Shown here: positions 34,415 through 37,764 of the stretch, piece by piece
How positions within the stretch are numbered: the stretch's first letter is position 1
Layout: every line of letters begins with the position of its first letter
Assembly (NCBI RefSeq): GCF_030731595.1
Contig: NZ_JANQTS010000078.1
Location: 1 to 42,425 of the forward strand
Length of the DNA stretch: 42,425 bases
Direction: 5' to 3'
Source of the DNA: Yoonia sp.
GTDB taxonomy: Bacteria > Pseudomonadota > Alphaproteobacteria > Rhodobacterales > Rhodobacteraceae
The notes under the pieces: model-generated
Seen by the model: only the letters and a program-made list of their open reading frames with translations
What the model was told of the DNA's origin: nothing
Databases searched by the model: none
Translations under genes and position numbers: made by a program

Positions 34415-35320
34415 ATGGACTGGGATAAACTAAGAATCTTTCACGCTGTTGCGGATGCGGGATCTCTGACCCACGCAGGCGACACGCTGCATTTGTCGCA
34501 ATCTGCGGTCAGTCGGCAAATTCGCGCCTTGGAAGAATCGCTCAATACCACGCTGTTTCACCGCCATGCGCGCGGGCTGATCCTGACCGAACAGGGCGAG
34601 CTTCTGTTTGACGCGACCAAATCCATGAACAAGCGGCTCGAAGCCGCCTCTGCGCGCATCCGCGACAGTGAAGAAGAAGTGTTCGGCGAGTTACGCGTGA
34701 CCACAACCACAGGGTTCGGCACGCTGTGGCTGGCCCCGCGCCTGCCCAAACTCTATGAACTTTACCCCGACCTCAAGATCGACCTGATGCTAGAAGAGCG
34801 CGTGCTCGACCTGCCGATGCGCGAAGCTGATGTGGCGATCCGCATGAAAGAACCCAGCCAGGCCGATCTGATCCGCAAACGCCTGATGTCTGTGCGGATG
34901 CGGCTTTATGCATCGCCCTCCTATCTGGAAAAGAACGGCACGCCGACAGAATTGGAGCATATGCGCGATCACAGGCTGATCTGCCAAAGCCTCAACTCTA
35001 TTCAGGTGGCCGCAGGTGCCACGCTTGTGCAGCATCTCATGACCTATGACATCCAGAACCTTTTCACAGTGAACAACTATTTCGGTGTGCTGCAAGGTGT
35101 CTTGAACAACATCGGAATCGGGATGCTGCCCGACTATGTCACCGAAGATTTTCCCGAACTTGTCCGCGTCCTGCCAGATCTGGAAAGCGGCGAGGTCCCC
35201 GTTTTTCTGGCCTACCCCGAAGAGTTGCGCCAATCCAAACGGATCGCCGCATTCCGCGATTTCGTACAAGAGGAAATCTTTGCTCACAGGCGAAAAATGC
35301 GCGAAGCAACAGAGCTTTGA
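34415..35320 (+). CDS. LysR-family regulator, LsrB/VtlR-like
   Basis: A 301-residue LysR-type transcription regulator. The N-terminal winged helix reads MDWDKLRIFHAVADAGSLTHAGDTLHLSQSAVSRQIRALEESL, then FHRHARGLILTEQGELL, closely resembling LsrB/VtlR of Rhizobiales as I recall them. The C-terminal effector domain begins VTTTTGFGTLWLAPRLPKL. In Brucella and Agrobacterium VtlR activates AbcR small RNAs and small-protein genes, and in Sinorhizobium lsrB lies next to the abcR1/abcR2 RNA genes. Here a candidate RNA of that type lies 120 bases downstream. It also diverges from the oxidoreductase gene by 159 bases, so either could be its target. Confidence 0.9.
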   Translation: MDWDKLRIFHAVADAGSLTHAGDTLHLSQSAVSRQIRALEESLNTTLFHRHARGLILTEQGELLFDATKSMNKRLEAASARIRDSEEEVFGELRVTTTTGFGTLWLAPRLPKLYELYPDLKIDLMLEERVLDLPMREADVAIRMKEPSQADLIRKRLMSVRMRLYASPSYLEKNGTPTELEHMRDHRLICQSLNSIQVAAGATLVQHLMTYDIQNLFTVNNYFGVLQGVLNNIGIGMLPDYVTEDFPELVRVLPDLESGEVPVFLAYPEELRQSKRIAAFRDFVQEEIFAHRRKMREATEL

Positions 35321-35439
35321 TCAACACCCATAAATTGTATTGAGGTCCGTTCCTTCGCACCGGTTGGATGTGAGCCATGCGCGCAACACATAGCGGGTTT
35401 GCGCACGCTTCATTCTATTTTTTCTTGAATGGTCAAAAA

Positions 35440-35536
35440 ACGCGCACTATCTCCTCCCTTGAAGGCGATGATGCCGAAACGCTCATCATCTTCACCTCCC
35501 TGTTGGACTTCGCCGGGCCTTGTGCCCGGCTTTTTT
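35440..35536 (+). ncRNA. Candidate AbcR/alpha-r15-like trans-acting small RNA
   Basis: The gene-free interval between the LsrB/VtlR-like regulator and purL contains an RNA-like layout. It has an anti-Shine-Dalgarno motif CTCCTCCC (35451-35458); a hairpin with stem GATGATG/CATCATC (35467-35473 and 35484-35490) extended by TGAA/TTCA; a second motif CCTCCCTG (35495-35502) followed by TTGGACTT; and a terminator with stem GCCGGGC/GCCCGGC and six T. Motif-hairpin-motif-terminator is the arrangement of Hfq-dependent AbcR RNAs. A possible heat-shock-type promoter is TTGAAT (35425-35430) with CTATCT (35447-35452); used as such it would start the RNA near 35459 and exclude the first motif. The 5' end is therefore uncertain. 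Confidence 0.55.
35512..35536 (+). terminator. Strong intrinsic terminator upstream of purL
   Basis: GCCGGGC (35512-35518), loop CTTGT, GCCCGGC (35524-35530), then TTTTTT. It is 192 bases past the LysR gene and 68 bases before purL. It would end the candidate small RNA or read-through from the LysR gene, and purL must have its own promoter after it or be attenuated by it. Confidence 0.92.
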
Positions 35537-35604
35537 CTTGGCAAATGGTGCTTTCCCATTGGCGCTTGCCTCGGTAAAAGGCGGCAACTGCCAAAGGGGT
35601 TATT

Positions 35605-37764
35605 ATGCAAGAGCCAGCCATCACCGAAGACCTGATCGCATCCCACGGGCTCAAGCCTGATGAATATCAGCGCATTCTCGACATCATCGGGCGCACGCCG
35701 ACCTTTACAGAGTTGGGCATTTTCTCGGCCATGTGGAACGAGCATTGCTCTTACAAATCCTCCAAGAAATGGCTGCGCACCCTGCCGACGACAGGCCCGC
35801 AGGTGATCTGCGGCCCCGGCGAGAACGCGGGCGTTGTCGATATTGGCGATGGTCAGGCGGTTGTCTTCAAGATGGAAAGCCACAACCACCCCAGCTATAT
35901 CGAGCCCTATCAGGGTGCGGCCACTGGCGTGGGCGGTATTCTGCGGGATGTCTTTACAATGGGTGCACGTCCGATTGCGGCGATGAATTCGCTCTCTTTC
36001 GGCGCACCATCCCACCCCAAGACCAAACAACTGGTCAACGGCGTGGTTGCGGGTGTGGGCGGCTATGGCAATTGTTTTGGTGTGCCCACTGTCGGTGGTG
36101 AAGTCCGCTTTGACCCCGCCTATAACGGCAACTGCCTTGTGAACGCCTTTGCCGCCGGCCTTGCCGATGCAGACAAGATTTTCTATTCCGCCGCTTCCGG
36201 CGTCGGCATGCCTGTCGTCTATCTTGGCGCAAAGACAGGGCGCGATGGCGTCGGCGGCGCAACCATGGCCTCGGCCGAATTTGATGACACCATCGAGGAA
36301 AAGCGCCCCACTGTCCAAGTGGGTGACCCCTTCACCGAAAAGCGCCTGATGGAAGCGACGCTGGAATTGATGGCAACAGGTGCGGTGATTTCGATTCAGG
36401 ACATGGGTGCCGCTGGCCTGACCTGTTCTGCGGTCGAAATGGGCGACAAAGGCGGCTTGGGTGTCCGCCTGAACCTGAACGCCGTGCCACAACGCGAAAC
36501 AAATATGACCGCCTACGAGATGATGCTGTCCGAAAGCCAAGAGCGGATGCTGATGGTGCTCAAGCCGGAACTGGAGGCCGAAGCCCGTGCGGTTTTCGAA
36601 AAATGGGACCTCGATTTTGCTATCGTTGGGGAAACAATCGCCGAAGATCGTTTCATTGTTGAACACAATGGCGAGGTCAAGGCCGACCTGCCTTTGGCAA
36701 CACTGTCTGGCTCTGCCCCCGAATACGACCGCCCTTGGGTGCCCACACCCGCCGCCGCCCCGCTGGGCGAGGTCACGGGCGTGCATCCGCTCGACGGGCT
36801 GAAGGCGCTGATCAGCAGCCCCAATTATGCAGGCAAGCAGTGGGTCTATGAACAATATGACCAGCAGGTTATGGGCGATACGGCCCGCACGCCCGGTCAG
36901 GGCTCTGGCATCGTGCGCGTACATGGTACCGATAAGTCACTGGCCTTCACAAGCGATGTGACCCCCCGCTATGTCAAAGCCAACCCCGTCGAAGGTGGCA
37001 AACAAGCGGTGGCCGAAGCCTACCGCAACCTGATTGCTGTCGGCGCGCGCCCCTTGGCGACCACTGACAATATGAACTTCGGAAACCCCGAAAAGCCTGA
37101 AATCATGGGGCAATTCGTGGGTGCGATTCAAGGGATCGGCGAAGCGGTCAAAGCGCTCGACATGCCGATCGTGTCTGGCAACGTCTCGCTTTACAATGAA
37201 ACCGACGGCAAGGGCATTCTGCCGACCCCCACAATCGGGGCTGTCGGGATTATCAACCACCCTGACGAGATGATCATCGGTGACATCCGCGAGGGGCACC
37301 TGCTGCTGCTCTTGGGCGAAACGACCGGACATCTTGGGCAATCGGCCCTTTTGGCCGAAGTCTATGGGCGGGCCGAAGGCGACGCGCCCGCCGTCGATCT
37401 GACGGCAGAAAAGGCCCACGGCGATTTCATCCGCGCCAACCACAGCTATATCAAAGCCTGCACAGACCTCAGCGATGGCGGGCTTGCATTGGCCGCCTTC
37501 GAGATGGCAGAGGCCGCAGGCGTGGGGATCACTCTGGACGTCGAAGACACGCCCACGCTTTTTGGCGAAGATCAGGCGCGCTATCTGATCGCCTGCAACT
37601 TTGATCAGGCAGAGGGCTTGATGGTCGCGGCCAATCAGGCAGGCGTCACGCTGACGACTGTCGGGAAAGCAGGCGGCGATCAAGTGACCTTTGGGCGCCA
37701 CAGCGCAGCTCTTGCGGATCTCGCCCAGATATTCCGCACGTCATTCGAGAAAGCGGTCGCCTGA
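35605..37764 (+). CDS. purL: Phosphoribosylformylglycinamidine synthase II
   Basis: ATP-dependent amidotransferase subunit of step 4 of purine synthesis, making formylglycinamidine ribonucleotide with ammonia from PurQ and with PurS. The 719-residue small-form PurL shows [23 protein letters not shown], the [37 protein letters not shown] signature, [39 protein letters not shown], and the second AIRS-like half with [10 protein letters not shown] and [12 protein letters not shown]. The ATG has AAGGGG upstream. purQ and purS are not in the window. It is followed by bolA, with its own likely promoter. Confidence 0.97.

Follow-up and report, generated by a model that had tools for sequence, protein, structure and literature searches.

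A SorY-type small RNA gene with a putative LsrB operator behind an LsrB/VtlR ortholog in Rhodobacteraceae

Introduction

In Rhizobiaceae, the AbcR1 and AbcR2 small RNAs (sRNAs; Rfam family ar15, RF02345) are encoded behind the gene for the LysR-type regulator LsrB/VtlR. These RNAs are 112-118 nt long, come in tandem pairs and carry two anti-Shine-Dalgarno motifs, with trxB upstream of lsrB; descriptions of the ar15 family place it in most Rhizobiaceae and Brucellaceae. In S. meliloti, AbcR1 is reported to be lost without LsrB, whose consensus GCAT-N3-TG-N3-T is given at -61 to -49 of abcR1, while AbcR2 is driven by RpoH1 and does not need LsrB (PMC8844928). Contrary to this, PMC7486931 reports that LsrB does not affect AbcR in S. 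meliloti; the same source mentions a conserved LTTR of the class. LsrB has been called unique to Rhizobiales in a 2025 paper whose tree, by its legend, holds three LsrB proteins and OxyR proteins (PMC11975290).

In Rhodobacter sphaeroides, the sRNA SorY (RSs1543, RF02651) is reported to depend on RpoHI/RpoHII, to co-precipitate with Hfq and to limit malate import (PMC5036791, PMC8307010), and its reported target is takP, for a malate transporter (PMC6238624). The same source places a further sRNA, SorX (RF02784), behind an OmpR gene, as a 3'-UTR product of ompR-1.

A search of the literature outside subscription papers found no paper naming both SorX and AbcR, and the only one naming SorY and LsrB together was an unrelated Salmonella paper. 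Papers naming SorY, sRNA and LysR included none on a SorY–LsrB link as judged by titles and the starts of abstracts, and a combined search gave no title on such a link among the matches listed. In three papers that name both AbcR1 and Rhodobacter, the Rhodobacter passages concern Hfq (PMC3712013), CbbR (PMC7486931) and RS0680a (PMC3927594), and a report on Paracoccus sRNAs (PMC5107571) mentions neither SorY nor LysR nor purL.

An sRNA gene between a LysR-type gene and purL

The window, the whole stretch of 42,425 nt from Yoonia sp. analysed here, belongs to a genome of 151 contigs and contains an sRNA gene on the + strand at about 35459-35537. An Rfam scan of the window at gathering thresholds gave two matches, a tRNA and SorX (RF02784), the latter covering 35454-35537 with 53.5 bits against a gathering score of 46.6 (E 2.2e-10). 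The segment 35459-35537 folds at -31.0 kcal/mol (z -4.1), a value equalled by none of 200 shuffles. With a family match and a fold better than that of shuffled sequences, the sRNA is more than a chance structure. Its fold consists of a hairpin, an open seed and a terminator, and the features of the RNA and its flanking genes are the following:

34415..35320, + strand: LysR-type regulator gene, LsrB/VtlR ortholog (phmmer match to PDB 9HH1, agreement of best hits, tree)
35459..35537, + strand: SorY-type sRNA (RF02784 match; synteny with SorY; 72.5 bits with model R1, which was built partly from the window's own sequence)
35460..35494, + strand: 5' hairpin, its end adjoining the seed (fold of the window)
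35495..35510, + strand: CCTCCCTGTTGGACTT, open anti-Shine-Dalgarno seed and conserved core (family alignment A1)
35512..35536, + strand: intrinsic terminator, with seven G-C pairs (paired part 35512-35530) followed by six T (terminator scan)
35605..37764, + strand: purL (open reading frame with AIRS/FGAR-AT domains)

The 5' end of the RNA is placed, to within about 3 nt, from the mapped start of R. sphaeroides SorY. The core CCTCCCTGTTGGACTT occurs once in the window, both strands counted. The terminator sets the sRNA apart from the downstream purL, and for five of its eight consensus pairs at least one sequence has both sides changed with pairing kept. The original prediction had proposed an sRNA beside an LsrB/VtlR homologue, and that proposal is upheld. 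Every element it described, namely CTCCTCCC at 35451-35458, the hairpin, CCTCCCTGTTGGACTT and the terminator with six T, is in the sequence.

The RNA is the positional ortholog of SorY

The window RNA is orthologous to SorY by position, not by Rfam membership. An iorAB-type gene, the LysR gene, the sRNA, purL, bolA and grx follow one another both in the window and in R. sphaeroides; we take the POR/DUF6537 protein encoded upstream of LysR to be of the fused iorAB type, and the window's bolA was recognised by eye. In the R. sphaeroides genome (G046), the ortholog of the window's LysR lies at 1631580-1632464, and the RF02651 match, with 115 bits, starts at 1,632,645, 3 nt after the published SorY start at 1,632,642 (PMC6238624). 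SorX lies at contig position 2,598,225 of the same genome; for its 5' end, an RNase E site has been published at 2,598,224 (PMC6238624). Because these coordinates match the published ones to within 1-3 nt, we took the genome to be that of strain 2.4.1, in which, as in the window, SorY lies between the LysR gene and purL.

The two RNAs share position, neighbours, promoter geometry, the hairpin-seed-terminator layout and the CCTCCCTGTTGGACTT core, and differ in the sequence of the 5' hairpin. With the SorY model, the window (501 nt, 35200-35700) reaches 34.4 bits (E 2.7e-5), below the gathering score of 111 bits, presumably owing to a narrow Rfam model, with which even R. sphaeroides reaches no more than 115 bits.

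The name SorX, by which the Rfam match would be called, cannot be taken at face value. Like the window RNA, SorX has a module of seed and terminator, and the window passes the SorX cut-off; unlike the window RNA, SorX is a 3'-UTR product. The SorX model finds three matches in the window's genome, at 77.9 bits on contig C58, 53.5 bits in the window and 37.1 bits on contig C36, and the C58 copy follows an OmpR-type response-regulator gene, which is where SorX is known to lie. We therefore rejected SorX as the identity of the window RNA, since the genome has its own, better SorX elsewhere. By passing the SorX cut-off and not the 111 bits of SorY, the segment 35454-35537 is labelled SorX by Rfam, and automatic annotation may misname SorY orthologs in this way. 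The copy on contig C36 (locus L008, 6241-6328, - strand; 40.9 bits with R1) adds a third member to this RNA family and is flanked by genes for a HerA-like helicase and an IalB-family protein.

Conservation of the RNA within Rhodobacteraceae

All 61 family genomes searched have a match to the window's LysR, the weakest best match being 8.2e-89. At a LysR identity of at least 66% we took 58 loci, 57 from the 61 genomes together with locus L102, and 54 of the 58 have CCTCCCTGTTG 95-213 nt behind the lysR stop. As these 54 loci were selected by CCTCCCTGTTG, its invariance in alignment A1 is by construction. Among the four loci lacking it, L062 has a variant matched by R1 (2.6e-9), and L070, L095 and L097 have none; among four more distant family loci, R1 matches L098 and L100 and leaves L099 and L101 unmatched. 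Five of the 62 family loci (L070, L095, L097, L099 and L101) thus show no sRNA match behind lsrB.

A hairpin ends beside the core in 53 of the 54 loci, against 33.1 expected from shuffles. RNAalifold run on A1 did not recover this 5' hairpin because its sequence varies too much for the alignment; support for the hairpin, which comes from per-sequence folding only, is modest. The original prediction had pointed to purL as a new neighbour. It is not peculiar to the window, being next to the RNA in R. sphaeroides as well, and in the downstream DNA fetched it follows (motif NEHCSYKS) in at least 28 of the 58 family loci. In one Rhodobacteraceae locus (L093), a model R2 built from 43 RNAs of the class, none from Rhodobacteraceae, has a second match at 635-727 on the - strand (E 3.6e-6), near the match at the SorY position, and this is perhaps a tandem copy.

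A candidate RpoH-like promoter and a first motif that is probably outside the RNA

Upstream of the hairpin lie a candidate promoter and the first motif of the original prediction:

35424..35429, + strand: CTTGAA, -35 element (51 of 54 family loci have CTTG between -55 and -76 of the core)
35446..35452, + strand: ACTATCT, -10 element (geometry like the RpoH1 consensus)
35451..35458, + strand: CTCCTCCC, between the -10 box and the inferred RNA start

A scan with the sigma-70 consensus found no promoter here. The RpoH1 consensus is given as CTTGAA-N16-CCTATAT (PMC8844928), and the -35/-10 geometry in the window matches, by sequence, an RpoHI/RpoHII promoter such as that of SorY. A -10 box of C-x-TA type starts 22 nt after CTTG in 30 of the 51 family loci with that element and 23 nt after it in 9. 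In R. sphaeroides, the SorY start precedes the CCTCCCTGTTG core by 41 nt and follows the C of CTTG by 35 nt, a spacing that places the start of the window's RNA near 35459.

With this start, CTCCTCCC falls between the -10 box and the first transcribed base and is therefore probably outside the RNA. A CCTCCC-type run at -60 to -30 of the core occurs in the window only among the 54 Rhodobacteraceae loci (none of the 53 others), and a plain CTCC in the same interval in 5 of the 54. The picture of two modules flanking a hairpin is thus not borne out, with motif 1 lying upstream of the inferred start. Of the expected conservation of both motifs in relatives, the CCTCCCTGTTGGACTT half stands, in rows picked by CCTCCCTGTTG, and the CTCCTCCC half does not.

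The same interval bears on whether the RNA could be processed from the 3' UTR of the LysR mRNA, in the way that SorX arises from ompR-1. As the scan detected no terminator from the LysR stop to the sRNA, transcripts of lysR may run on to that of the sRNA, and the SorX ortholog on C58 does sit behind an OmpR-type gene; against this, SorY in R. sphaeroides has its own promoter and a mapped start (PMC6238624), and 51 of 54 loci keep the promoter-like CTTG element in the expected position. We regard a 3'-UTR origin as very improbable and treat the RNA as the product of a separate gene.

The neighbouring LysR protein is an LsrB/VtlR ortholog

The window's LysR protein matches PDB 9HH1 with a phmmer E-value of 1e-71; this entry is A. 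tumefaciens LsrB (PMC11975290), to which the protein is 43.8% identical. In a class sample of 143 genomes, 89 match the window's LysR at 1e-50 or better and 90 match A. tumefaciens LsrB, and the best gene is identical for both queries in 88 of the 89 genomes with both matches. Rhizobiaceae seem to be missing from this sample, where identity to A. tumefaciens LsrB peaks at 54%, and were taken from PLSDB instead. In a quick tree of 75 proteins, in which long outgroup branches were flagged, a branch with SH-aLRT 96 separates all LsrB-type proteins, including those of Rhizobiaceae, from six other LysR proteins. The window's LysR is thus an ortholog of A. tumefaciens LsrB, in line with the LsrB/VtlR homologue named in the original prediction. 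No NCBIfam equivalog was found for it: 41 families match at E<=1e-10, and none of the best 25 of the 41 reaches its cut-off.

The redox-active cysteines of A. tumefaciens LsrB (C144, C236, C244 and C273) are absent from 23 of 23 Rhodobacteraceae proteins, the window's included, and among 40 other LsrB proteins only the C144 position is ever cysteine (2 of 40). Because the four cysteines are not kept in Rhodobacteraceae LsrB, the signal sensed must differ, and thiol sensing may be a rhizobial addition.

A conserved palindrome precedes the promoter at near-fixed spacing

Between the LysR gene and the promoter lies a putative operator:

35377..35391, + strand: ATGCGCGCAACACAT, palindromic LysR-type (T-N11-A) site of the form ATG-N9-CAT, putative LsrB operator of the sRNA, 47 nt before CTTG

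The window's palindrome is imperfect, its CAT not being preceded by G. ATG-N9-CAT occurs at -160 to -60 of the core in 41 of the 54 Rhodobacteraceae loci, the window included (shuffle mean 2.5, maximum 7), in 45 of 59 named loci (mean 4.5, maximum 10) and in 13 of 20 class loci (mean 1.5, maximum 6). The strict form ATGC-N7-GCAT occurs in 29, 39 and 11 loci of these sets, respectively (shuffle means 0.6, 0.57 and 0.2). Within 200 nt upstream of lsrB itself, ATG-N9-CAT is found in only 3 of 58 loci.

The distance from the palindrome to the -35 element (CTTG) is nearly fixed: among 39 measurable loci it is 47 nt in 32, 46 nt in 4 and 36 nt in 3, the last being about one DNA turn shorter than 47. 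Counted by eye, S. meliloti and R. leguminosarum have 36 nt between the palindrome and a -35-like element.

We scored sites with a matrix trained on 36 Rhodobacteraceae sites only. With the window left out of training, the site in the window scores 29.1; its overlapping reverse reading reaches 17.3, and the best non-overlapping site 6.9. On both strands of the 4864-base S. meliloti Ak57 locus, the top site is ATGCGCAAACGGCATGGCTGTCAT (score 11.3, next 4.0), which holds the published LsrB consensus and lies 61 nt before the ar15 match. Top scores elsewhere are 23.8 in R. leguminosarum, 16.2 in Shinella and 11.3 in Sinorhizobium K101, with the site in these three between lsrB and the first ar15 RNA, and 26.9 in Paracoccus denitrificans and 21.1 in Octadecabacter. 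In the 20 class loci, the top site falls inside the strict lsrB-sRNA interval in 12 and outside in 8. Within 450 nt of lysR coding DNA, the best score was -2.0 or less in 62 loci.

Among 18 core-bearing loci outside the training set, 10 score above 10. In five of the eight low scorers (L059, L065, L067, L069 and L085), a palindrome begins so close to the stop (2 nt behind it) that the scan did not cover it; the other three, L061, L083 and L092, have no clear site, L083 a weak one at most, and the sRNA-bearing locus L098 likewise has no clear site. The five family loci without an sRNA match are also without a site, their best score behind lsrB being -1.2 or less.

These results support, at the level of sequence, a LysR-type operator upstream of the sRNA promoter that is conserved and matches that of S. 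meliloti abcR1. The original prediction had foreseen the pairing of regulator and RNA extending to Rhodobacteraceae, and LsrB orthology together with this operator agrees with it.

A SorY ortholog could also do without LsrB, depending on RpoH (and RpoD) only, with the palindrome serving something else, for example repression. RpoHI/RpoHII dependence could by itself suffice for SorY, which is reported to be RpoHI/RpoHII-dependent and Hfq-bound (PMC5036791, PMC8307010), and the -35/-10 geometry fits RpoH. That the site stands 47, 46 or 36 nt from the promoter in 39 of 39 measured loci, matches the LsrB activation site of abcR1 and is absent along with the sRNA from five loci makes an RpoH-only gene unlikely, and we retain activation through LsrB as the preferred reading.

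In Octadecabacter antarcticus, an lsrB-sRNA pair with operator and RNA match (L293) lies beside repC on the 63-kb plasmid pOA307_63; the module can therefore be plasmid-borne.

AbcR shares the place of the RNA and not its sequence

With the AbcR1/AbcR2 loci, the window shares an LsrB ortholog upstream, an sRNA downstream on the same strand, a matching operator and anti-Shine-Dalgarno seeds; upstream of the regulator gene, trxB at the AbcR loci is replaced by the iorAB-type gene in the window. The RNA sequences are not detectably related. An Rfam scan of 35200-35700 at E<=10 gave 13 rows without ar15, the next after SorX being SorY and then suhB/mmgR (21.2 bits against a cut-off of 41), and ar15 was likewise missing from the 24 rows obtained with 35440-35560 alone. 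Since ar15 and suhB share a clan, a weak ar15 match could hide behind the suhB row in cmscan; in the scan of 35440-35560 one weaker match to a clan family, possibly ar15, was hidden, and in that of 35200-35700 none. Searching the whole genome directly with ar15 gave, at E<=10, no match at this locus and a sole match (13.6 bits, E 5.7) on another contig, while four Rhizobiaceae loci used as positive controls scored 97-127 bits. An ar15 search across the class matched nowhere, not even at its controls, and so carries no weight. The window RNA thus stays below 40 bits with RF02345, and the alpha-r15 part of the covariance check proposed with the original prediction came out negative. The family suhB/mmgR (RF00519), of the same clan as ar15, resembles the window RNA in its CCUCCCU...ACUU core before the terminator and differs in lying under its cut-off here.

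A true AbcR/ar15 RNA would account for the position behind lsrB, the operator type and the anti-Shine-Dalgarno seed. Beside the lack of any ar15 match at the locus, models R1 and R2 do not significantly match AbcR (best E 0.43 and 0.11), and of the two anti-Shine-Dalgarno motifs expected within such an RNA, the first lacks conservation and precedes the inferred start. We rejected ar15/AbcR membership and give it hardly any chance; from the proposal of an AbcR/alpha-r15-like sRNA, the sRNA beside an LsrB/VtlR ortholog stands and the family assignment falls. Any case for common descent with AbcR would draw on place, regulator and operator instead of the RNA sequence; at the level of the RNA, common descent could be revived only by a chain of intermediates.

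A model for LsrB-dependent expression of SorY

In the reading that we consider likely, the locus holds a separate gene for a SorY-ortholog sRNA that is switched on by the neighbouring LsrB ortholog through the palindrome and an RpoH-like promoter, and that acts by Hfq-aided seed pairing. The LsrB/VtlR ortholog would bind 35377-35391 and, when bound, activate the promoter at 35424-35452. The resulting RNA of about 79 nt would carry the 5' hairpin, an exposed CCUCCCUGUUGGACUU seed and the terminator, and with Hfq would pair with transporter mRNAs at their ribosome binding sites, takP being the example from R. sphaeroides, lowering uptake under stress and working like LsrB-AbcR1 in rhizobia. Both LsrB and RpoH would most likely act on one promoter; S. 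meliloti splits them, LsrB acting on abcR1 and RpoH1 on abcR2. We infer that LsrB binds at and activates SorY in Rhodobacteraceae, that the seed pairs at ribosome binding sites and that the RNA has such targets in this organism.

If this holds, SorY gains a candidate second input besides RpoH, and AbcR, tied to host interaction and ABC transporters, and SorY, tied to photooxidative stress and malate uptake, are joined under one regulator and one promoter design. It would also run against the printed view of LsrB as unique to Rhizobiales (PMC11975290).

Related RNAs lie behind lsrB across Alphaproteobacteria

Behind lsrB in many other alphaproteobacterial families, the site again accompanies an sRNA, and the RNAs have a recurrent core. 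A core 27-mer, allowing up to two mismatches, occurs in 91 of 289 class genomes, and its reversed control in none of the genomes listed. Of the genomes with the 27-mer, 44 are also in the 143-genome LsrB sample: 41 have LsrB and 3 lack a match at 1e-50. In these 41, the 27-mer lies 0-700 nt downstream of LsrB on the same strand in 33, at 1.9-5.6 kb in five and elsewhere in three. A scan of named genomes for the exact 27-mer gave at least 119 stretches, 80 of which were used as loci; among the 80 listed, LsrB is upstream on the same strand in 60 (within 471 nt of the aligned end in 59), 9 have no LsrB upstream and 11 are not judgeable. The named loci include Azospirillum, Roseomonas, Reyranella, Magnetovibrio, Inquilinus and Kiloniella. 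Behind lsrB, CCTCCCTGT is found in 15 of 20 class loci (L103-L122), in none of which Rfam gives anything at gathering scores: a widespread RNA core, in lineages including Azospirillum, goes unmatched there.

At E<=0.01, model R1, from the 54 Rhodobacteraceae loci, matches 15 of 27 class loci, its best E being 2.5e-7, and R2 matches 13 of the 14 tried among 64 Rhodobacteraceae loci. The part shared by R1 and R2 is mostly CCTCCCTGTT..ACTT together with the terminator, and SorX and the C36 copy carry it as well; both models match both of these RNAs. We therefore read the similarity as that of one RNA superfamily and not as locus-specific descent.

The likely LsrB site before the window RNA suggests that the class shares far more widely the pairing of regulator and RNA known from rhizobia and their relatives. 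One ancestral module, of lsrB and an LsrB-activated anti-Shine-Dalgarno sRNA directly behind it, may have arisen early in Alphaproteobacteria and been inherited vertically. Its descendants would be SorY in Rhodobacterales, AbcR in Rhizobiaceae and, in Azospirillum, Roseomonas, Reyranella, Magnetovibrio and others, an RNA with core CGTCTCCCAGACGTGAAGCCTCCCTGT that Rfam left unmatched in the loci tried; the rhizobial redox cysteines would be a late addition. We hold this history to be about evenly balanced between true and false.

In two genomes of one family (L301 in G178 and L302 in G273), up to three tandem copies of the sRNA stand behind lsrB, in parallel to the tandem abcR1/abcR2. By eye, three of the three copies in L301 and two of the three in L302 have a LysR-type palindrome of their own.
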